A stretch of DNA of 34,010 nt, taken from a virus. Of the stretch, positions 1,138 through 32,459 are shown piece after piece (the stretch's first letter is position 1; every line of letters begins with the position of its first letter). The notes under the pieces are model-generated. The model made no database searches. It was given only the letters and a program-made list of their open reading frames with translations, and was not told the origin of the DNA. The DNA lies in the IMG/VR virus record IMGVR_UViG_3300025669_000127, positions 1 to 34,010 of that record; one strand, 5' to 3'. A program made the position numbers and the translations under genes.

Positions 1138-1166
1138 ATTATTGCATATTTAAATTCATACGTCAA
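1138..1166 (-). promoter_or_regulatory. consensus-like promoter of the small-gene operon
   Basis: On the minus strand the sequence reads TTGACG (1166-1161), 17 nt, then AATAAT (1143-1138), preceded by TG one base away (extended -10). The predicted start is near 1131, 27 nt before the ATG of the 60-aa gene. An AATAAACTATT element (1175-1165) overlaps the upstream edge of the -35 box and recurs twice further upstream, which suggests operator control. Confidence 0.75.
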
Positions 1167-1602
1167 TAGTTTATTTTGTTTAATAACTATTATAGATAGG
1201 ATTTTTCATCTATAATAGATCATAATAATCATAATAGTTTATTATAACTGTATTATACATATATAATAAACTATTATAATGTATTATAGATAAATTACTA
1301 TTGAGCATTTAACCTGGTATAGCTTGCAAGCGTGATTATATATAGGTTTATATGCTTTATTATTATGATTATTATAATTATTATAGATAATATTAAGATA
1401 TAATGGTTTATTAAATGGTGTTAGAAATATATTACATTATGTATAGTATTATATACAATAAAAACAAATAATAAAAAATACCAGAATCATCTATAATAAT
1501 TATAATAATCTATCACAAAAGCACAAAAGCACAAATCAAATAAGTCTGATCCGTGCGTCCGGCGTTTTTTTTTTCTGGTATGGAAAAACATCACCATAAT
1601 GC
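1165..1602. promoter_or_regulatory. AT-rich non-coding region with nested inverted repeats
   Basis: No credible ORF is present. The region holds a perfect 11-bp inverted repeat (CTATTATAGAT at 1187-1197, mirrored at 1208-1218), a perfect 16-bp inverted repeat (ATAATAGTTTATTATA at 1231-1246, mirrored at 1262-1277), and further scattered TATTATAGA/TCTATAATA copies near 1281, 1378 and 1490. A CACAAAAG direct repeat occurs near 1514-1536. AATAGTTTATT occurs at 1165 and 1233 and inverted at 1265. Operators upstream of the promoter at 1138-1166 or an origin of replication are the main options. Confidence 0.6.
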
Positions 1603-1627
1603 AAAAAAACCGAACACACGTTCGGTT
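1603..1627 (-). terminator. intrinsic terminator of small RNA 1
   Basis: On the minus strand AACCGAAC (1627-1620), the tetraloop GTGT, and GTTCGGTT (1615-1608) are followed by a run of T to 1603. This is a classical Rho-independent terminator with an 8-bp stem. It ends the transcript predicted to start near 1764. Confidence 0.9.
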
Positions 1628-1764
1628 CTGATAATATACATTATGTAAACTAATTTTTGCTATCGTTGAATTAATTTGAAAAAGCGTAATTGTGCAAATG
1701 AGCAGATACCGGAGGCTTCAGTTAGTCTTCCTATTTTCTATCTGAAAAACCAAGATCGGTTTAT
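1603..1764 (-). ncRNA. candidate small RNA 1, about 160 nt
   Basis: A transcription unit without a usable ORF is bounded by a TTGACT-17-TATATT promoter (1799-1771) and an intrinsic terminator (1627-1603). The predicted start near 1764 is followed at once by a hairpin, AAACC/GGTTT (1762-1747). Further on, CAGATA and TATCTG could pair around an internal stem, and ATAAT/ATTAT forms a small hairpin before the terminator. No ATG or GTG in the RNA opens a frame of useful length. It lies just downstream of small RNA 2, which has the same plan. It matches no RNA family I recognise. It could act as an antisense, sponge or protein-binding RNA. Confidence 0.65.
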
Positions 1765-1770
1765 GGTGTT

Positions 1771-1799
1771 AATATAGCATAAAAATATAAAAAAGTCAA
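1771..1799 (-). promoter_or_regulatory. promoter of small RNA 1
   Basis: On the minus strand TTGACT (1799-1794), a 17-nt spacer and TATATT (1776-1771) differ from the sigma-A consensus at one base per box. The -35 context ATTTGACTTTT is the same as in the promoter of small RNA 2. Confidence 0.85.
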
Positions 1800-1842: not shown

Positions 1843-1873
1843 TAAAAAACCCCCGACTATAAACATCAGGGGT
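1843..1873 (-). terminator. intrinsic terminator of small RNA 2
   Basis: On the minus strand ACCCCTGA, an 8-nt loop and TCGGGGGT form a GC-rich stem with one mismatch, followed by TTTTTT. It separates small RNA 2 from the promoter of small RNA 1 and would stop read-through from the tRNA array. Confidence 0.9.
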
Positions 1874-1974
1874 CTATGATCTTTGTTACCAGAGCGATCA
1901 TTACTCCGGTCGTTCTTCACGACAATGTATGGTTAGTCATAACCTCTCAATTTGTTTTCGCTGTCTGAGTCAGC
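1843..1974 (-). ncRNA. candidate structured small RNA 2, about 130 nt
   Basis: The unit starts near 1974, seven bases after a TATCTT -10 box, and ends at the terminator 1873-1843. Read on the minus strand it contains successive hairpins: GCTG/CAGC (1974-1960), GGTTA/TAACC with loop TGAC (1944-1931), GTCGT/ACGAC with loop GAAGA (1923-1909), ACCGGAG/CTCTGGT with one G-U pair (1910-1888, sharing two bases with the previous stem), and the terminator. Start codons in it open only frames of about 7 to 11 codons with poor SD spacing. A longer GTG frame reads through the terminator and is not credible. No known RNA family is recognised. Confidence 0.7.
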
Positions 1975-1980
1975 ATTTAA

Positions 1981-2009
1981 AAGATATCACATATTAAATG
2001 AAAAGTCAA
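1981..2009 (-). promoter_or_regulatory. promoter of small RNA 2
   Basis: On the minus strand TTGACT (2009-2004), a 17-nt spacer and TATCTT (1986-1981). It lies directly downstream of the tRNA-Gln gene, so small RNA 2 can be made independently of the tRNA array. Confidence 0.8.
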
Positions 2010-2017
2010 ATAAAAAC

Positions 2018-2091
2018 TGGAAGGTCTGTCAGGAATCGAACCTGAATTAGTTGGATCAAAGCCAACTGTACTACCATTGTACTACAAACCT
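2018..2091 (-). tRNA. tRNA-Gln (UUG)
   Basis: The minus-strand cloverleaf has acceptor AGGTTTG/CAGACCT, anticodon arm GTTGG-CTTTGAT-CCAAC with anticodon TTG, and T-arm TCAGG-TTCGATT-CCTGA. Discriminator T and an encoded CCA are present. The D-arm is short. It is the last tRNA of the array. Confidence 0.95.
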
Positions 2092-2146
2092 GTGAAGAGC
2101 ATAAGAAAGCCTCTCAGATGGACGTACAAGCACATACAGAGCAAAC

Positions 2147-2221
2147 TGGAGCTAGTGAAAGGACTTGAACCTTCAACCCCCTGCTTACAAGGCAGATGCT
2201 CTACCATTGAGCTACACTAGC
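2147..2221 (-). tRNA. tRNA-Thr (UGU)
   Basis: Acceptor GCTAGTG/CACTAGC, anticodon loop CTTGTAA with anticodon TGT on a stem TCTGC/GCAGG containing one wobble pair, a T-arm with TTCAAGT, discriminator T and encoded CCA. Confidence 0.95.
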
Positions 2222-2227
2222 TTTTTT

Positions 2228-2302
2228 TGGCTCCGGAGGCTGGGATCGAACCAGCGACATCCTGATTAACAGTCAGGCGTTCTACCTCTGAACTACTCCG
2301 AA
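2228..2302 (-). tRNA. tRNA-Asn (GUU)
   Basis: Acceptor TTCGGAG/CTCCGGA, anticodon arm CCTGA-CTGTTAA-TCAGG with anticodon GTT, T-arm GCTGG-TTCGATC-CCAGC, discriminator G and encoded CCA. Confidence 0.95.
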
Positions 2303-2305
2303 ACT

Positions 2306-2382
2306 TGGTACACCCACCTGGATTCGAACCAGGAACATCTGCGGTCTAAACGCAGCGACTCTGCCAATTGGCCTATGGGTGC
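2306..2382 (-). tRNA. tRNA with UAG anticodon (Leu CUA codon), short variable loop
   Basis: Acceptor GCACCCA/TGGGTGT, D-arm with AATTGGCAGA, anticodon arm CTGCG-TTTAGAC-CGCAG with anticodon TAG, T-arm CCTGG-TTCGAAT-CCAGG, A73 and encoded CCA. By the anticodon it reads CUA (Leu). The D-loop and A73 are Leu-like, but the variable region is only 5 nt (ATGTT) instead of the long arm normal for bacterial tRNA-Leu. Charging identity is therefore uncertain. Confidence 0.9.
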
Positions 2383-2395
2383 AGAAAAAAAAAAC

Positions 2396-2474
2396 TGGAG
2401 GGGAGTAAAATATGACCTGTACAGTAACGTCATCATACTCATAGATTTCTACAACTGTTACTCTCTATCTCCCC
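2396..2474 (-). ncRNA. tRNA-sized RNA-like fold ending in CCA, possibly a decayed tRNA
   Basis: A 79-nt minus-strand segment lies in the gap of the tRNA array. Its ends pair as GGGGAGA with ACTCCCC (six pairs plus a terminal A-A mismatch), followed by T and CCA exactly as in the neighbouring tRNAs. Inside there is no canonical TTCNA T-loop. Instead AGTAAC pairs with GTTACT and ATGAC with GTCAT. It may be a degenerated tRNA whose acceptor end survives, or a processed RNA that uses tRNA maturation enzymes. Confidence 0.35.
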
Positions 2475-2479
2475 ATATT

Positions 2480-2558
2480 TGGTCTGGGCGGTAGGATTTG
2501 AACCTACGATCTTCCGGATCCAAGCCGGAAACTCTAAGCCAGACTGAGCCACGCCCAG
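2480..2558 (-). tRNA. tRNA-Pro (UGG)
   Basis: Acceptor CTGGGCG/CGCCCAG, anticodon arm TCCGG-CTTGGAT-CCGGA with anticodon TGG, a T-arm with TTCAAAT, discriminator A and encoded CCA. The D-loop is somewhat long (79 nt in total with CCA). Confidence 0.95.
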
Positions 2559-2598
2559 TAAACTAGAAACTAAAAACTAAAAACTAAATAAAATTATG

Positions 2599-2666
2599 CC
2601 GAGATTTTTTACATGAGCCATAACTCAAACCATAAAGGAGGTCGCTATCACAATTGCGTATCTCGG
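2599..2666 (-). ncRNA. cloverleaf-like relic between tRNA-Pro and tRNA-Asp
   Basis: A 68-nt minus-strand segment is closed by CCGAGAT/ATCTCGG (7 perfect pairs). Inside are three short arms in tRNA order: CGC/GCG, GACC/GGTT with an 8-nt loop, and TGAG/CTCA with a 6-nt loop. There is no TTCNA T-loop and no CCA after the acceptor. The position in the array and four-arm layout suggest a decayed or diverged tRNA. The short arms could arise by chance. Confidence 0.3.
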
Positions 2667-2686
2667 ATACCTATGTCAAATAAACT

Positions 2687-2761
2687 TGGCCATGGATAGG
2701 GGATTTGAATCCCTACTAACAGCGTGACAGGCTGTCGTGCTAACCATTACACTAATCCACG
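2687..2761 (-). tRNA. tRNA-Asp (GUC)
   Basis: Acceptor CGTGGAT/ATCCATG (one G-T pair), D-stem GTGT/GCAC, anticodon arm ACAGC-CTGTCAC-GCTGT with anticodon GTC, discriminator G and encoded CCA. The T-stem closing pair next to the TTCAAAT loop is A-C instead of the usual G-C, a visible weakness in an otherwise good cloverleaf. Confidence 0.9.
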
Positions 2762-3775: not shown

Positions 3776-4115
3776 AAAAACTCCTTAACTTAAAAAAAAA
3801 ACTAAATAATATATAGTAGCGGTTTTTCATCAAGTTAACAAAACTTTGGTATACCGCCAACCATAATACAATCAACAACCGTTCAGCATATCGGTTGATG
3901 TTTTCAATATGCTGTGTGGTCAGATGATGCCCTTATACAGCATCACCGAGATCTCCTCCTACACATGGTAAGTGAGATAGAAAACGGTTTTTTCATCTCA
4001 TGACTTTAGGCCAGCTATCTGCTAAAGCTCCCGTTGCCAGTCAGGTATTTAAGGAGATCATCGCCTTAGTCCCAGATCTCCACCGTAAACCTATATATCA
4101 TCAACCTAAGCAGTA
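3776..4115 (-). promoter_or_regulatory. long structured leader RNA of the HD gene
   Basis: From a predicted start near 4115 to the HD ATG no long ORF exists. Hairpins seen on the minus strand include GGAGATC/GATCTCC (4081-4075 with 4059-4053), CTTTAG/CTAAAG (4027-4022 with 4009-4004), a TGAGAT/ATCTCA stem near 4000-3973, TGATGC/GCATCA near 3945-3922, and CAGCATAT/ATATGCTG (3914-3907 with 3891-3884). The last is interleaved with CAACCG/CGGTTG (3897-3892 with 3881-3876). The GATCTCC segment can also pair with a second GGAGATC at 3956-3950 that is part of a strong SD, so two exclusive folds exist. No known riboswitch class is recognised. Confidence 0.55.
3920..3946 (-). CDS. possible 8-codon leader peptide
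   Basis: Within the HD-gene leader, AGGAGG (3960-3955) is followed 8 nt later by GTG-ATG and six more codons (reading MMLYKGII) before TGA at 3922-3920. The SD is the best in the leader and would be hidden if GGAGATC (3956-3950) paired with GATCTCC (4059-4053). A leader peptide that senses translation is plausible, but the ORF is too short to prove by eye. Confidence 0.3.
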   Translation of the reverse strand: MMLYKGII

Positions 4116-4121
4116 GACACT

Positions 4122-4150
4122 AATAAACCACATTTTAACAAAAAAGTCAA
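4122..4150 (-). promoter_or_regulatory. promoter of the HD gene leader
   Basis: On the minus strand TTGACT (4150-4145), 17 nt, then TTTATT (4127-4122). The -35 box and the following T-run match the two small RNA promoters. The -10 is weak, so strength or exact spacing is uncertain. Confidence 0.55.
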
Positions 4151-4179
4151 GTATTAAATAAAAGAAATTAATAAAAGCC

Positions 4180-4208
4180 TTGACAAATCCTGAAACATGT
4201 GATATTCT
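4180..4208 (+). promoter_or_regulatory. late operon promoter
   Basis: TTGACA (4180-4185), a 17-nt spacer and TATTCT (4203-4208). The predicted start is near 4215, which rules out an ATG at 4199 as the first codon of the small terminase gene and supports the ATG at 4232. Confidence 0.8.
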
Positions 4209-5777: not shown

Positions 5778-5951
5778 ATAAGTAGATTAATAGTAAATGA
5801 TTTGAGTGAAATTGAAAGAGAAAAACTCACAAAACAATTAACTCCAAAAATGACTAAATTTATTCCCCATACGCCTTATCCTAAACAAGCTGCGTTCTTG
5901 AATTTAAATTGCCGAGAAGCTTTTTATGGTGGAGCAGCTGGGGGAGGTTGA
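5778..5951 (+). pseudogene. terL: N-terminal part of large terminase, separated by a frame break
   Basis: In the frame two steps from the main ORF, translation reads ...KFIPHTPYPKQAAFLN, then FYGGAAGGG, then TGA at 5949-5951. That is the N-terminal adaptor and Walker A motif of large terminase up to the residue before the catalytic Lys. AAAGGAGG at 5761-5768 is followed 9 nt later by ATA at 5778, with no ATG or GTG in frame. The next residues KSDALLM lie 7 nt downstream in another frame. The fragment is the missing start of the ORF at 5926. Confidence 0.75.
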
Positions 5952-7179
5952 GAGCAAATCTGACGCTTTATTAATGGCTAGCCTTCAGTACGTTGATACA
6001 CCTGGGTATAACGCAATATTATTTAGGAGAACTTTTGCTGAGTTGACTTTGCCTGAAGCATTGATGGATAGAGCAGCAGAATGGTTGCAACCATTTAGAG
6101 TAACTAAAGAAGTTCATTGGTCAAGTCATGCTAAGACATACACCTTTAAGAGTGGAGCTAAACTAACTTTTGGTTATTTGGATAACTCTAATGATCATCT
6201 TCGTTATCAATCAGCTGCTTTTCACTTTGTAGGTTTTGATGAACTTACTCATTTTGAGGAATATGATTATGTATATCTTTTCTCAAGAGTAAGAATACTC
6301 AAAAATATGAAGGATATAGGAGTACCATTACGCACGAGAGCAACTAGTAATCCAGGAGGTCCTGGACATTTGTGGGTAAAAAAACGTTTCATAGATGATG
6401 ACAAAGCTAAAGGACGTATATACATACCGGCTGTTATTGATGATAATCCTGCGTTGGATAAAGAATCATATGTTGAAAGCTTAAGTGAATTACATCCGTT
6501 AGAAAAAGCACAACTACTAAATGGTGATTGGACAAAAACTAGCGGAGGTAAGATATTTAAGCGTAATTGGTTTGAAATATTGGATAAAATGCCAGAAACT
6601 ACAAATAGATACACACCCAGAGTTCGTTATTGGGATCTTGCTGCAACAGATGCAGAAGTATCAAAAACTTATGGTTATATGCCAGCATTTACAGCGGGGC
6701 TTAAAATGGCCAAGTACACAGATCTGCTTGGTAATGATCTATTTATTATAGAAGATATAGTTAGATTACAAAAAACACCTGATGTGGTAGAACTAAAGAT
6801 TAAAGAAGTAGCAAAATTAGATGGTCGTAATGTAGATGTATGGATGGAGGAAGAACCAGGTTCAGCTGGAAAAAAGGTAATATTAGATTATCAAAAAGCA
6901 TTACGAGGTTATTCATTTAGGGGTATGCGAGAAACAGGATCAAAAATAACCAGAGCTTTAAGGGTATCGTCAACAGCAGGTCAAGGTCGTATAAAACTAC
7001 TTAAAGGAATATGGAATGACGCTTTCTTAGATGAAGTAGATTTTTTCCCAGATGATAAAATTAAGGATCAGGTTGATTGCTTAAGTGGTAGTTTCGATAA
7101 GCTTTCACATTTTGCGTCATATTCGGTAATACCTACTGCGGTAGGTGAAGAAACACAAAGTTATTGGCAAAACTCATAA
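5926..7179 (+). CDS. terL: terminase large subunit, main ORF (Walker A split off)
   Basis: The main ORF gives 417 aa. From KSDALLMASLQYVD (residue 11 on) it is a typical large terminase: the Walker B FVGFDELTHF (D105, E106), SNPGGPGH coupling region (141-148), and RNase H-like nuclease acidic residues at RYWDLAA (D237), IIED (about 276-277) and DQVD (about 381-384). The protein packages DNA into the prohead by ATP hydrolysis and cuts it. The ATG at 5926 is out of frame with the true N-terminus, so a product started there would lack the P-loop. Either expression needs recoding across 5948-5956 or the gene is broken. Confidence 0.85.
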   Translation: MVEQLGEVESKSDALLMASLQYVDTPGYNAILFRRTFAELTLPEALMDRAAEWLQPFRVTKEVHWSSHAKTYTFKSGAKLTFGYLDNSNDHLRYQSAAFHFVGFDELTHFEEYDYVYLFSRVRILKNMKDIGVPLRTRATSNPGGPGHLWVKKRFIDDDKAKGRIYIPAVIDDNPALDKESYVESLSELHPLEKAQLLNGDWTKTSGGKIFKRNWFEILDKMPETTNRYTPRVRYWDLAATDAEVSKTYGYMPAFTAGLKMAKYTDLLGNDLFIIEDIVRLQKTPDVVELKIKEVAKLDGRNVDVWMEEEPGSAGKKVILDYQKALRGYSFRGMRETGSKITRALRVSSTAGQGRIKLLKGIWNDAFLDEVDFFPDDKIKDQVDCLSGSFDKLSHFASYSVIPTAVGEETQSYWQNS

Positions 7180-8979: not shown

Positions 8980-10824
8980 ATGGCAGATGATGATTATAAA
9001 GGACCCCCAAGGAAAGTATTTATAACAGATGAAGATGGGGATTATCTTGATTTAACAGATGGTAAATTACCAGTTAATGATGCTTTAGGGGCTAAAGAAG
9101 CTAAACAGGATGATGTAATAACAGAACTGGGTAAGAAAGCAGATCTAACAGAAACACAACCTGTTGAAGAACAATCACCTATAACTGGTTTTGCTACTTC
9201 TGCTAAACAATTACCTGATGACCATAAAGTTACAGTATCTAATCCAACAACTAATCCTGAAACTGGATTGGCTACAAGTGTTAAACAGGATGATGTAATA
9301 ACAGAACTGGGTAAGAAAGCAGATCTAACAGAAACACAACCTGTTGAAGAACAATCACCTATAACTGGATTGGCAACTTCTGCTAAACAGTTACCTGATG
9401 GCCATGATGTGAGAACCATTGAAGCTAATGGTGTACCTGCAGCATATAATAAACAAACAGGAGTTAGTGAGTTATTTAATATCCAAAAGGGTCAGCTCAA
9501 CAAGATGAGGTTAAGACCTGAGATACTCAATGAACACGCTGAAAGTTCAAGGGAAATACAGGCAGAGGTAAACACTACAACTAGGATAGTAGGCCAGATA
9601 TTTAAGACAAGTCAAGATAATATAAGTGCTATTGACCTTGCTATGGAAAGTGCAGGCGGTACTGTCTTTGATAACTTTGATACTTACGCTGATGACGCAG
9701 CATTACAAGCTGTATGGGTTGCTGATGATGAATTACCTGTTATAGAAACAACGATAGTATATCAAGGCACTAAGTCTATGGAATTAGATATGGGTAATGC
9801 CTCTGCTGTAGATGATGAATGGATAAGGACTTTAGCACCAGCAGTTGATTATTCAGGCTATACAGGTAGCATCTTTCTTTATTCAAATAAAGAATATAAA
9901 GATGTTAAGTTAAGTTTCTTTATAGGTGATGGCACTAATACCAGAAGTACAGCCATGATACAGGATAATAAAAATGTATGGACACAAGTTGAGATAGCAG
10001 TAGATGAAATGACAGAGGACGGGGTTGTTGCAACAGACGCAACCGCTATTACAAAGATAGGATTTAGGGTTGATAAAAAGAAGAGAGATGGCTTTGCGTA
10101 TATTGATTTAATGACAGCTATACCTGCACCCGGAACTGTAACCGTAAGATTATGGGACATGGGTACGGATATACCAACAGGCTCAACAAGTATTGATGAT
10201 GGTACACAGTATGTAACATTAGGAGATCTAGGTATTACTGGTAAACAAATATCAGAAGATGAGGTTGACTTACTAGGTGGATTTAGGACTTACCATTTGC
10301 ATAACTTTGTGGCGGGGGTAGCTTTAGAGTTTCCTGCTAATGTTCTTTTAAATGTAGACCACTATTATGCGATTACGATAAATTGGGTTGATACAGATGT
10401 AAGCATCTATGGCCCGATATCCACCAACAGCTATGACTACTATGAGAATGGCTTTGCATTTACAGCACCTGATGAAGCGACAGCCATAACACTATTAGGC
10501 GCAAACCATGATTTGATGTTTGCAGTATATTCTACCCAAGATGTCTATGTTATAAATATGCGACACTCTGCAGATGCAGCTCCTGGGTTCGGTTCTACAT
10601 TTAACGTCTATATTGAGGACTCAAACATGACAAGGACTTGCTCAATCAACACTATCTCTAAAGGACAGCAAACAGTTAAATTTGACAACCTAAGTTCTAA
10701 CCCTTGCTTTATGGAGAAGGGTTCCAAGATAGAAGAAGAATATGATGATGACTTTACAGATAGCGTATCAATAATTGATATGGGATTTAGATTTTTATAT
10801 ATACCGCCCACACCACATGGATAG
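8980..10824 (+). CDS. virion structural protein with tandem repeat and jelly-roll-like region
   Basis: This 614-aa protein follows the portal directly. Residues about 30-145 contain two copies of a 60-residue module (ADLTETQPVEEQ, SPITGFATSAKQLP) encoded by near-identical DNA. Residues about 225-390 (YADDAALQAVW, SMELDMG, DVKLSFFIGDG) read like a beta-sandwich, galactose-binding type domain. The C-terminal part is beta-rich. No catalytic motif is seen. The position between portal and head protease suggests a head-associated or whisker/adhesion protein. SD AAGGAGGG before ATG 8980 is strong. Confidence 0.6.
   Translation: MADDDYKGPPRKVFITDEDGDYLDLTDGKLPVNDALGAKEAKQDDVITELGKKADLTETQPVEEQSPITGFATSAKQLPDDHKVTVSNPTTNPETGLATSVKQDDVITELGKKADLTETQPVEEQSPITGLATSAKQLPDGHDVRTIEANGVPAAYNKQTGVSELFNIQKGQLNKMRLRPEILNEHAESSREIQAEVNTTTRIVGQIFKTSQDNISAIDLAMESAGGTVFDNFDTYADDAALQAVWVADDELPVIETTIVYQGTKSMELDMGNASAVDDEWIRTLAPAVDYSGYTGSIFLYSNKEYKDVKLSFFIGDGTNTRSTAMIQDNKNVWTQVEIAVDEMTEDGVVATDATAITKIGFRVDKKKRDGFAYIDLMTAIPAPGTVTVRLWDMGTDIPTGSTSIDDGTQYVTLGDLGITGKQISEDEVDLLGGFRTYHLHNFVAGVALEFPANVLLNVDHYYAITINWVDTDVSIYGPISTNSYDYYENGFAFTAPDEATAITLLGANHDLMFAVYSTQDVYVINMRHSADAAPGFGSTFNVYIEDSNMTRTCSINTISKGQQTVKFDNLSSNPCFMEKGSKIEEEYDDDFTDSVSIIDMGFRFLYIPPTPHG
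9102..9368 (+). repeat. 87-bp identical direct repeat, 180-bp period
   Basis: Bases 9102-9188 and 9282-9368 are identical, and similarity continues downstream with a few changes. The period is 180 bp, 60 codons, so the frame is kept. It encodes the duplicated module in the structural protein at 8980. The lack of silent differences marks a recent duplication or gene conversion. Confidence 0.9.
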
Positions 10825-21393: not shown

Positions 21394-22872
21394 ATGAGAA
21401 CATGTGAAAAAATTGAATTTGATACAACAGCAGATATATTATATGTAGGTAATGGATTACTTTTCCGTTCAGGAATGGGTACATTAATTACTAGTAAAAT
21501 ATCTTTTGCTTCATCTCCTTCATATGAAGCAGACGTTAAAAAAAGTCAACGTACATTTAAAGGTTTAGTGGAAATATACTTTGATGGCGATGATGATACA
21601 CCTACAATTTTTGAATATGATGATATATCTAGGATTAGTTTCTTAGATGAATTATATACACAAGGAGAAACACCCTTAGGAAAAGTATCATCTAATGAAT
21701 TGGTAGTGGGGTTAAAAAATTTATTAGGTGTTTTTCGCCCAGAAAATACAGCAAGTCCTTACTATGGCAAACTTTTACCTAATCTATTAATCGTTGCTTA
21801 CTTTGGTCTTGAACTTACTTCAGGAGTTTTTGATTGGATACGACTAGGTAAATTTAGAACTGGTGATTGGGTAGCTCCTGCAAGTTCACTTGAATGTGAA
21901 TTGGTATGTTATGATTTTTTATATAATATTATAAATGATCCAATGCCTCAAATACCATGCCAGGAGAAAAAAACAAAAAAAGAAATGATTGAAATTTTAC
22001 TTAAAGCAGCAGGTAAAACTAGTAATGAAATAGATATTAGTGACGCTCTTGATTATGCAGTACCTTTAGGATGGTTCGTTTCAGGTGAAATTAGAGACGG
22101 GCTTCAACCTTTAGCTGAGGGTAGTTCTGCTAACATTTTTGGTGATAGGGAGGGAATCATTAAAGCAGTAAGTAATTATACTACTAAAGATGCTTCTATT
22201 ATTTGGAGGGATTCAGATATGATATATAATGCAGAGATGCCTCAGAAATACAATAATGCGTATTCACAGGTGGAAGTTAAATATTATATCCCTAAAATTG
22301 CTAATGTTTCTTCACTATTAAAATTAGAAAATGTTACTGTACCATCAGCTGGATTAACTTTAACAGATTTAACTTTTGGTAGTCCTGTAGCATTTATTGA
22401 TGAAGTAAGATTGACAAATGCTACTAATGTTACTATTACTTCAATAGCAACTGGTTCATGGGGTATTACCATAGTGCTTGCTAATGCAGGTGTTGAAAAA
22501 GAAGTTACATTGGAGATATTTGGGCATATTATAGAAACTACTGAAGCTTATTATACTGCTACTGATACAACTATGCAGGGTAAAATAGGTAATGTAGTAT
22601 TGAAAATAGATAATTATTTAATTCAAACTGAAGAAGATGCTATAGAATATGCTGAAGATCTATTACCTATAGTGGCTGATCCATCAGCGTATGTTACTAT
22701 TGATGGTAGAGGAGATCCTTCTGTATTACTTACTGATACTATTAATATAATAAATACTACAGAAGATATAGATGATTTAGATGTAGTACCAATAAGGCAA
22801 GAATATATTTATGATGGTGCATTAACATGTAAATCAGTAGCTATAAAAAGAAGTGCAAAGGCAGGTGCATAA
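21394..22872 (+). CDS. baseplate/tail hub protein (putative)
   Basis: The product has 492 aa. It begins MRTCEKIEFDTTADILYVG. Middle segments (WIRLGKFRTGDW, ECELVCYDFLYNIINDPMPQ, KKTKKEMIEILLKAAGK) resemble tail hub/Dit-Tal-type proteins. The C-terminal part has a beta-rich insertion (NATNVTITSIATGSW) and then VTIDGRGDPSVLLTDTINI, reminiscent of hub proteins that end in a binding domain. It starts 1 nt after the previous stop. Identity is by position and similarity of style, not by a decisive motif. Confidence 0.6.
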   Translation: MRTCEKIEFDTTADILYVGNGLLFRSGMGTLITSKISFASSPSYEADVKKSQRTFKGLVEIYFDGDDDTPTIFEYDDISRISFLDELYTQGETPLGKVSSNELVVGLKNLLGVFRPENTASPYYGKLLPNLLIVAYFGLELTSGVFDWIRLGKFRTGDWVAPASSLECELVCYDFLYNIINDPMPQIPCQEKKTKKEMIEILLKAAGKTSNEIDISDALDYAVPLGWFVSGEIRDGLQPLAEGSSANIFGDREGIIKAVSNYTTKDASIIWRDSDMIYNAEMPQKYNNAYSQVEVKYYIPKIANVSSLLKLENVTVPSAGLTLTDLTFGSPVAFIDEVRLTNATNVTITSIATGSWGITIVLANAGVEKEVTLEIFGHIIETTEAYYTATDTTMQGKIGNVVLKIDNYLIQTEEDAIEYAEDLLPIVADPSAYVTIDGRGDPSVLLTDTINIINTTEDIDDLDVVPIRQEYIYDGALTCKSVAIKRSAKAGA

Positions 22873-29468: not shown

Positions 29469-31766
29469 TCACTTATCAATCATCTCTCCCCACTTAAAGC
29501 CATAACTAATATCAACTTTAAACGGTATCTTTGGATGCAACCAATCTATTGGAACTTGTTCCATAGTTTCTTTAACTAATGCTCTGATTTTATTAACTTT
29601 TTCTTTATTATTTGGTGCCTCAACTAAAATAGCGTCATGTATAAGATTAACAGAAAATGCATCTAATTTCAATAGAGGGTTCTCTAATTCTATAGCTGAT
29701 ACTAAGTTTAAATCTGAGCCTGTACTTTGAATTTTAAAATTTCTGCTTTCATTCTTTAAGCCTTGATCATTTGCTATAACTCCATATCTTCTGTAACGAC
29801 CAAAAGGAGTAACAAAAGGAGTACCAGTAAGTAACTGAGTCTCGCAATCATCTAAGTATTGTTTAGCTTTTGGTGCACGTTCAAACCATTTATCTATCAT
29901 CATTTGTGCTTCTCGTAAAGATATATTTAATTGTTGCGCAATGCTAAAAGCAGTAATACCATAAATAATTCCGAAGTTTACAGGTTTAACATTAGTACGA
30001 TCTTCCTTTGTAAAATTAGTACCGTAAATTTCACTGGCCATAGCACTATGAATATCCTTGCCTTGTCTAAAAGTTTCAAGTAGAAAATCGTCATCACTAA
30101 AGTGGGCAAGCAGCCTTAATTCTAACTGACTATAATCAGCTTCAATTAATAACCGTCCTTCAGGAGCACCAAATATAGATTTAACTATTGGATTTCTTGG
30201 AATAGTCTGCACATTAGGTTTGCTACTAGATAATCTACCTGTAACAGTAGTCTGCAAACTGAACGAACTCCTTAAGCGATTATCAGGATCTACTCGTTTC
30301 TCAATTCCTTTAACATACGTACTCATTAATTTAGCAAGTTCTTTATATTTAAGTAAGTAAGTAAATCCATAGTGCCTATCTTCAATATCAGCAATAATAT
30401 CTTTATCTGTGCATCTCTTGTTTTTCTTGTGTATCTTTGGTATAATTTTTAGTTGATCATAAATTATAAAAGCTAACTGTTGAGAACTATTAGGATTAAG
30501 TTCAACTGGTGCTGACTTTGCATCTGTTTGTACTAAGTAACCTTCCCTATTCCAAATAGCACCAAAAGAATCAATGACTTGTCCTTTCAAAATATCAAGT
30601 TCAATCTGTAGTTTTTTATGATATTGAGCTAAGTATTCTTGCCTAACATAAAAACCTTTTTGCGACATTCTGCGTAAGAAGTTAATACCAGGTATTAACA
30701 CTTTATAATACAATTTCTTAAGATTAGGGTCAGCTTCTATCTGTGGAAGAAACAAATCACTTAACTGATAAGTATGATCAGCATCCATGGCAACTAATAA
30801 ATTACGCTGATCTTCAGATAGTTCAGCCATTTTTGATTTATCCACATCAAATCCATAATCTTTTGCTCCCAGAAAAAGTCTTGATAAAGAATCTAAATCA
30901 TGACCACGTTCATTTTCGTTGAGGACATAGTGCTGTAATAAGGTATCATGTTGTCCTTCTATTTCTATACCATGTTCAGAAAGAACTGCGGTATCAAATT
31001 GCATCCTTTGGTAAATGGTTTTACAATTTGATAGAATTTCTTTAATGTATGGCAACATATCAGATTGGAACACTACGACTTTGTTCTTAGCATATTCTAA
31101 TCCCACAACTAAAATTTGAGCTTTCTTGGGGTCTAAACTGGTAGTTTCAATATCACAGCTAATAGTACCATGAAGTAAAGGCAGTAAGGAATCAATATTT
31201 TCTTTAGTTGCAACTTGATAGGTGGTTATGCCAGGATCCTTTTTATGTGTAGGATTATCTAATAATTGTTTTGCATAGATAAAACCATTTAAAAATGTTT
31301 TGTAATTACCTATAGCATTTAATACTGCTGTCGGATGATAGATGGGAATAATGAGACTATCACCAAAAGGTATAGGAGTTGAATGGGCGGAGCCTATTTT
31401 TAATTTATAGTTATTTGTTAAAGTATGTAAAGCAATGTTACCAAATGCTAGAATGATCTTAGGTTTGACTATAGCAAGTTCAGCTAAAACTCTTGATCTG
31501 CAATGTGCAATATGTGCACGTTGGATATTTGTATCTTCAGGTATCATACATAATAATGAATTAGTTATATATGGTGTATCAGTGAAGCCCGCTTTTGCTA
31601 AAGTTTCTTTAAGTAATTGCCCTGATGGACCTACAAATGGTGTCTTAGCGACCAGCTCCTGATTATTAGTACTTCCACCTACTATAGCGAGGTTGCTACT
31701 AAAAGGTTCAGTAGGTGGTATTTGTGGGTATATGTTTAGTTCACATTTTTTGCATTGGGCTAACAA
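29469..31766 (-). CDS. uracil-DNA glycosylase-like domain fused to family A DNA polymerase
   Basis: The product has 765 aa. Residues 1-170 form a family 4-like uracil-DNA glycosylase: C5 and C8, C73 and C89 spaced like its [4Fe-4S] ligands, KTPFVGPSG (41-49) and HPTA (144-147). The catalytic-region GEAPG is replaced by VGGST. About 190-370 is a 3'-5' exonuclease (SCDIETTSLD). The polymerase part has motif A EADYSQLELR (D544), motif B with K594 and FGIIYG, and motif C IHDAILVE (H710, D711, E716). A TTG at 31766 within the overlap with the Mom-like gene is the likely start, with GGGG 8 nt upstream. It is probably the phage replicase. Confidence 0.85.
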   Translation of the reverse strand: MLAQCKKCELNIYPQIPPTEPFSSNLAIVGGSTNNQELVAKTPFVGPSGQLLKETLAKAGFTDTPYITNSLLCMIPEDTNIQRAHIAHCRSRVLAELAIVKPKIILAFGNIALHTLTNNYKLKIGSAHSTPIPFGDSLIIPIYHPTAVLNAIGNYKTFLNGFIYAKQLLDNPTHKKDPGITTYQVATKENIDSLLPLLHGTISCDIETTSLDPKKAQILVVGLEYAKNKVVVFQSDMLPYIKEILSNCKTIYQRMQFDTAVLSEHGIEIEGQHDTLLQHYVLNENERGHDLDSLSRLFLGAKDYGFDVDKSKMAELSEDQRNLLVAMDADHTYQLSDLFLPQIEADPNLKKLYYKVLIPGINFLRRMSQKGFYVRQEYLAQYHKKLQIELDILKGQVIDSFGAIWNREGYLVQTDAKSAPVELNPNSSQQLAFIIYDQLKIIPKIHKKNKRCTDKDIIADIEDRHYGFTYLLKYKELAKLMSTYVKGIEKRVDPDNRLRSSFSLQTTVTGRLSSSKPNVQTIPRNPIVKSIFGAPEGRLLIEADYSQLELRLLAHFSDDDFLLETFRQGKDIHSAMASEIYGTNFTKEDRTNVKPVNFGIIYGITAFSIAQQLNISLREAQMMIDKWFERAPKAKQYLDDCETQLLTGTPFVTPFGRYRRYGVIANDQGLKNESRNFKIQSTGSDLNLVSAIELENPLLKLDAFSVNLIHDAILVEAPNNKEKVNKIRALVKETMEQVPIDWLHPKIPFKVDISYGFKWGEMIDK

Positions 31767-32407
31767 GAAACCAACCCCTCTTCTGAAACTTCATAACTTG
31801 CATCATATTTTGTATTATCCCCTTTAGGGTAATTTAATCGCTTTAATTTATAATGCTTATGCATATTTTTAACTTCTGTTTTATTCCCTAAAAAATAAAA
31901 ATATCTATATGTAGGTTGTAGTAAAATTTTTTCTACTATCTTACCTTTCTTATCTATACCACGTCTTATATCAAAAGATGATCCATCTTCAAAAATATAC
32001 CTATGTTTAGGAGAACTAGTACCTGAATATATCCAATTAGTTGCTTGATAAATATAACCATGATGACCCTGATTAGGATCTGCATAACTTACTATGCAAC
32101 ATGGCTTAGGTAATAACTTTAAAGATGATGAAACAAAATAACTTAAAGTATTTTTTGGCAATTTATCATTTACAACTAATCTATTTAATTCTAATGTAGT
32201 TACTTCGTAGTTTATAAATACACATTTACCTTTATTAAAATTATAATTAGGGGGATATCCAAAAGTACAAATACCTTCTAACCTCCTGGTATTATTACTA
32301 AAAAGACCAAAAGCATATGATATAGAAGGTCTCCTATGGGCATAATGTTTCTTAAGTATCCAAGGATATGCTCTCTTAGATGGTATTGATTTTACATGGT
32401 ACTCCAT
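31760..32407 (-). CDS. Mom-like DNA adenine modification protein
   Basis: The product has 215 aa from MEYHVKSIPSKRAYPW. The GAGGA ribosome binding site lies 5 nt upstream; a longer frame to 32434 would read through the terminator at 32425-32459. LKKHYAHRRPSISYAFGLF, GICTFGYPPN, LNRLVVNDKLPKNTLSYF, CIVSYADPNQGHHGYIYQATNWIYSG are typical of the Mu Mom family of GNAT-like proteins. Mom turns adenine into N6-methylcarbamoyl-adenine to protect phage DNA from restriction. It overlaps the polymerase start by 7 nt. The C-terminal 40 residues are basic and less conserved. Confidence 0.8.
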   Translation of the reverse strand: MEYHVKSIPSKRAYPWILKKHYAHRRPSISYAFGLFSNNTRRLEGICTFGYPPNYNFNKGKCVFINYEVTTLELNRLVVNDKLPKNTLSYFVSSSLKLLPKPCCIVSYADPNQGHHGYIYQATNWIYSGTSSPKHRYIFEDGSSFDIRRGIDKKGKIVEKILLQPTYRYFYFLGNKTEVKNMHKHYKLKRLNYPKGDNTKYDASYEVSEEGLVSC

Positions 32408-32424
32408 AAATTCCTCTTTTCTCT

Positions 32425-32459
32425 TAAAAAACAATCAGGGCAGTCACCCACCCTGACTA
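32425..32459 (-). terminator. intrinsic terminator ahead of the Mom-like gene
   Basis: On the minus strand AGTCAGGG, a loop of about 10 nt, and CCCTGATT (8 pairs including one G-T), then GTTTTTT. It lies 18 nt before the Mom-like ATG and after the ssDNA-binding gene. Transcripts from the recombination genes would stop here unless antitermination or another promoter acts, so it may gate Mom and polymerase expression. Confidence 0.85.

Follow-up and report, generated by a model that had tools for sequence, protein, structure and literature searches.

The tRNA cluster of phage T4 contains unassigned stable RNAs, tandem promoters are found at the primary origin of phage T7, and oop adjoins the origin of phage lambda. 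Base-pairing small RNAs of phages, such as VpdS, PreS and sar, have been reviewed (PMC12197685), and the terminators of Hfq-dependent small RNAs have been characterized as seven or more T following a hairpin of moderate strength (Morita and colleagues, PMC5558911). In the Listeria phage CKA15, transcription is among the highest in apparently non-coding regions, some of which lie near tRNA genes; these regions carry TTGAC/TATAMT promoters, were shown by RNA-seq to yield a large share of the phage transcripts, and have given rise to a Y RNA proposal for this phage (PMC12282133). As CKA15 demonstrates, the transcription of a phage can be dominated by units of this kind. Small non-coding units near phage tRNA clusters are nevertheless easily overlooked in annotation, because they present neither an ORF nor an Rfam match.

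Here we describe a predicted unit of this type, RNA2, which lies together with a first unit, RNA1, downstream of a tRNA cluster and in the same (leftward) direction (Table 1). The window analysed is a whole virus record, linear and 34,010 bases long, which is probably a fragment of a larger phage genome. Five other contigs (L002, L003, L050, L051 and L052) are 99.8-100% identical to it over parts of its length: L002 begins at 4153 and L003 at 3947, and the remaining three match the right part. Since L050 extends about 24 kb past the right end, the genome measures at least about 58 kb. This uncultured bacterial virus, a tailed phage, has a siphovirus-like late module (terminase at 5926-7179, capsid, and a tape measure recognized by ORF size) and lysis genes; an AAA protein and a family A DNA polymerase with a fused uracil-DNA-glycosylase-like domain are also encoded. 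The relatives of its terminase come from Chloroflexota, Bacillota, Planctomycetota, Gammaproteobacteria and archaea, and with matches scattered over bacterial phyla and archaea no host is therefore called.

Several other traits of the record were observed. The starts of L003 and L002, which stem from other samples, at 3947 and 4153 hint that strains vary, or that the assembly breaks, to the left. L003 also jumps from 9225 to 9282, within a region of 124-bp direct repeats (96% identical, 9102-9405) inside a 614-aa gene. Four tandem copies of a 26-bp unit, TTACTATTGCTCCAGATGCTATCCTG, occupy 61-170 near the left end, and a Mom-like DNA modification protein is encoded at 31760-32434 (-) (PHROG 1384, E 4.6e-52).

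Table 1. Positions of RNA2, its signals and the surrounding features in the window
Feature	Position	Strand	Description
RNA2, predicted transcript	1603..1764	-	about 162 nt, predicted from promoter and terminator
Promoter P2	1771..1799	-	TTGACT 1799-1794, 17-nt spacer, TGC extended -10, TATATT 1776-1771
Weak 5' hairpin	1747..1762	-	AAACC-GATCTT-GGTTT; 5 bp, 6-nt loop, -2.9 kcal/mol
Intrinsic terminator	1603..1627	-	AACCGAAC-GTGT-GTTCGGTT; 8-bp stem 1627-1608, seven T 1609-1603
RNA1, predicted transcript	1845..1975	-	about 130 nt, terminator about 1875-1847
Promoter P1 of the first unit	1981..2009	-	TTGACT-17-TATCTT, extended -10 TGA
tRNA cluster	2018..2761	-	n=6; transcription order Asp, Pro, Leu, Asn, Thr, Gln; ARAGORN and Rfam
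Separate promoter of the next gene	1138..1166	-	TTGACG-17-TGC-AATAAT; serves small gene 922-1104
AT-rich block	1188..1498	.	five exact TATTATAGAT copies, both orientations; candidate origin or operator array

Signals delimiting the RNA2 unit

The promoter TTGACT-17-TATATT proposed for this unit in the first-pass annotation was recovered on the minus strand. It also possesses an extended -10 TG, which had gone unmentioned; promoters of the P2 type are expected at 0.003 per shuffled intergenic region, and in a looser, untuned consensus scan P2 reaches 10 of 12 matches. P2 reads as a strong, consensus-like promoter of the housekeeping type. The perfect 8-bp terminator stem with its GTGT loop was equally confirmed: the stem pairs with a probability of 0.97-1.0, the isolated hairpin has an energy of -11.7 kcal/mol, and in a strict scan of the whole record it was the only stem with 7 or more perfect pairs next to a T tract (a looser, untuned scan gave 6 terminators against 2.8 expected). 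On the plus strand the same stem is not followed by a T tract, so that promoter and terminator point one way only.

We defined a strict unit as TTGAC, 17-nt spacing, TG and TA...T, with a perfect stem of at least 6 pairs and a T tract 60-250 nt downstream. RNA2 is the only such unit on either strand of the 34 kb record, and none appeared in 20,000 dinucleotide shuffles of 1105-2017, a figure to be taken as indicative since the definition was written after the RNA2 unit had been seen. These predicted signals give good sequence support to a small, discrete and well-delimited transcription unit.

The start of RNA2 was placed 7 nt after the -10, with a margin of 2 nt either way. The claim that about 160 nt contain no ORF was borne out: the approximately 137 nt before the terminator (to 1628) hold no credible ORF, and no ORF of at least 20 aa lies wholly inside 1603-1764 on the minus strand. 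With any start codon allowed, the longest frames wholly inside RNA2 have 16 codons (CTG) and 11 codons (TTG), and none has a good ribosome site; a 60-codon GTG frame at 1738-1920 merely overlaps RNA2 and spans the first terminator and the second promoter. A non-coding RNA would be the likeliest product, and we regard a discrete non-coding RNA2 transcript as probable.

The hairpin described at the 5' end does exist, and a 6-bp variant of it has -3.1 kcal/mol; as a design feature, however, it is weak, forming in about 18% of the full RNA2 ensemble (probability about 0.18), with an equally good hairpin near the 5' end in 7% of shuffles. The folding of the whole RNA2 is not beyond chance (z about -0.8 to -1.1 against shuffles), and the z-score becomes +0.55 when the terminator is removed. 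The body of RNA2 is predicted to be largely unpaired and open.

The upstream unit and a recurrent promoter form

A first unit of the same layout does stand in tandem upstream, as had been noted, and it is better folded than RNA2, with a z-score of -3.1 against shuffles. Inspection by eye of RNA1 at 1877-1975 (-) revealed a possible H-type pseudoknot, in which the AUGAUC loop of a CCGGAG/CUCUGG hairpin faces a downstream GAUCAU. A six-base complement was also seen by eye between the 5' loop of RNA2 (GAUCUU) and RNA1 (AAGAUC); chance alone would give such a match in a few per cent of cases.

The two promoters have a -35 context of 16 nt in common, TTTTTATTTGACTTTT, and the RNA bodies differ, both as originally described: no similarity was detected between RNA1 and RNA2, and the repeat scan matches the promoter segment alone. 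The suggestion that the unit was duplicated found no support. RNA1 and RNA2 were rejected as duplicates, the bodies being unrelated, the shared segment being limited to the promoter, and ATTTGACTTTT being a recurrent -35 form that likewise surrounds the -35 of ordinary promoters on unrelated viral contigs. Tandem ATTTGACTTTT pairs 185-215 nt apart occurred in 10 contigs in a scan of 2.9 million viral contigs. In five of these, as judged by eye (L024, L026, L027 and L031, which form one family, and L032), TATAAT follows both ATTTGACTTTT copies after 16-17 nt and the promoters lead into RBS-ATG genes or an RNA gene. Because ordinary promoters in these five contigs carry it, ATTTGACTTTT is a common form of strong phage promoter.

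Within the record a third promoter of the P1/P2 form, at 4150(-), reads CTTGACTTTTTT, and versions of the form that differ in the sixth base stand at 4180(+), 1166(-) and 27339(+). Co-regulation of the two units, the other suggestion made from the shared promoter, thus stays plausible but is unspecific, given these further occurrences. The same-class promoters at 4150-4180 are divergent, one directed toward the tRNA and small RNA side and the other toward the terminase genes, and the sign of the GC skew flips there. Behind the 4150 promoter and ahead of the HD-domain gene lies a structured leader of about 340 nt (3776-4113 (-), z -3.0), for which no Rfam match was found.

Relatives, pairing partners and alternative readings

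Blastn against phages and plasmids returned no homologues of either unit. Exact 19-mers of both bodies, looked up in viral contigs, and a search of 23 related or overlapping records gave one 19-nt match at chance level only. The neighbouring proteins (HD-domain, CxxCxxCC and the 60-aa ORF) led to no relatives in viral contigs, and among the terminase relatives (about 50% identity and below) there was neither a tRNA gene in the stretch around the terminase nor an RNA match. No Rfam family was reached by RNA2 at gathering score; a match of 1594-1712 to MicC (RF00121; 27.2 bits, E = 0.53) falls far below the gathering score of 90 and was treated as chance. Consequently, with no homologue found, neither conservation nor covariation supports RNA2 as a functional RNA.

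Pairing partners were sought with duplex energies that allow long interior loops and are crude. Base pairing between RNA1 and RNA2 is unsupported, 88 of 500 shuffles being as good, and pairing with RNA3 was not beyond shuffled controls. Phage gene starts show no overall excess: 31 of 100 shuffles equalled or surpassed the best energy, and the longest perfect complement of RNA2 to such starts has 12 nt, which is at chance level. Taken singly, two starts, those at 22872 and 613, beat all 100 shuffles and are weak leads among about 40 tests.

Several readings other than that of an independent base-pairing small RNA were weighed, the first of them arising from the surroundings of RNA2. The tandem promoters could serve a replication origin in the AT-rich block, priming or activating it by read-through, or the terminators could hold transcription off it. 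The block lies about 110 bp past the RNA2 terminator and contains 25- and 26-nt inverted repeats; the record has five exact TATTATAGAT copies, and every one of them falls inside it. The GC content of 1170-1510 is 17% against about 34% overall. The maximum 10-mer count of this array was reached in 15 of 1000 shuffles, a modest and merely suggestive significance for an array noticed post hoc; two more single TATTATAGAT copies occur in 25 kb of L053 and L054. However, a strong terminator closes each unit ahead of the block, the block may just as well be an array of operators or simply AT-rich spacer, and replication genes are not adjacent (polA lies at 29469-31766, and a primase/helicase-like gene was recognized by eye in L054). 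We consider an origin-associated transcript unlikely. The more specific notion that RNA1 and RNA2, as paired terminated transcripts, control an origin or an immunity-type operator array at 1188-1498 is a long shot; if it were true, the phage would time its own replication via two small RNAs situated between the tRNA genes and the origin. Alternatively, RNA2 may be what termination leaves of an early transcript whose longer form, under an antiterminator or stress, would continue into 922-1104 and 428-613. These genes have the same direction, and further hairpins at 1556-1529 separate them from the RNA2 terminator, but no alternative antiterminator fold is evident, and about 500 bp of AT-rich DNA lie between RNA2 and gene 922-1104, which, served by a same-class promoter of its own, needs no read-through. 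Such a leader or attenuator appears decidedly unlikely.

A decayed remnant, that is, a promoter and a terminator left from a lost tRNA or gene unit and now functionless, would agree with the fact that conservation could not be shown, the RNA2 locus lying outside all five near-identical contigs and nearly all of the left 4 kb being absent from them. A near-perfect promoter and terminator are unexpected for debris, though, and no tRNA remnant is detectable, which leaves this reading rather unlikely. The position directly after the tRNA genes and the precedent of CKA15 would suit a structural small RNA of the kind found in tRNA clusters, which would work through a partner protein or mimic a tRNA or Y RNA. 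Neither RNA1 nor RNA2 supports this by similarity: in 1603-1975 there is no tRNA or Y-RNA (YrlA) match at E up to 10 and no ARAGORN hit, weak YrlA matches fall on the tRNA genes themselves, and the fold of RNA2, as given above, does not exceed chance. A structural role is very unlikely for RNA2, and suits RNA1 better. The least credible proposal is a very small mRNA for a micropeptide: AGGAAG does precede the 16-codon CTG frame at 1721, but the start codon, the length, the lack of relatives and the absence of anything of at least 20 codons make it highly improbable.

Proposed function and comparison with known systems

The explanation that we prefer, and hold tentatively, is an independently transcribed phage small RNA that would be made by the host polymerase and may act by base pairing. 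During infection, RNA2 would be transcribed from P2 by the host's RNA polymerase carrying the housekeeping sigma factor, and termination in the U7 tract would release a non-coding RNA of about 160 nt, with a largely unpaired 5' portion followed by the terminator hairpin and a U tail. With less confidence, we suppose that this RNA may act in trans, either by pairing with an mRNA of the host or the phage or as a sponge for a host small RNA, and that Hfq or a similar chaperone would assist it if the host has one. Base pairing appears the likeliest function since RNA2 combines an open body with a U7 terminator, as Hfq-binding small RNAs do, T7 at 1609-1603 following a hairpin of -11.7 kcal/mol; U7 also occurs in ordinary strong terminators, and a trans-acting base-pairing function remains a possibility short of even chances.

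Small RNAs encoded by phages are a known kind, and RNA2 would be an orphan among them, with no relative found and no target that stands out; by itself, the finding opens no long-standing question. Its likeness to the Hfq-dependent phage RNAs VpdS of VP882 and PreS of lambda (PMC12197685) consists in being phage-encoded and short. With Hfq-dependent small RNAs in general the predicted RNA2 shares the U7 terminator and the open body, although no homologue was found. The T7 primary origin and lambda oop/ori resemble the locus in that an AT-rich region adjoins promoters or a short RNA with a terminator, but here the transcripts are predicted to end before that region, and the origin is a candidate. 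The regions of CKA15 are similar in being apparently non-coding, in lying beside tRNA genes and in having promoters of the housekeeping type; they were reported without canonical intrinsic terminators, whereas the predicted RNA2 has a strong one. If expressed, the RNA1/RNA2 pair would exemplify such units in an uncultured phage, the signals for start and stop being unusually clear.
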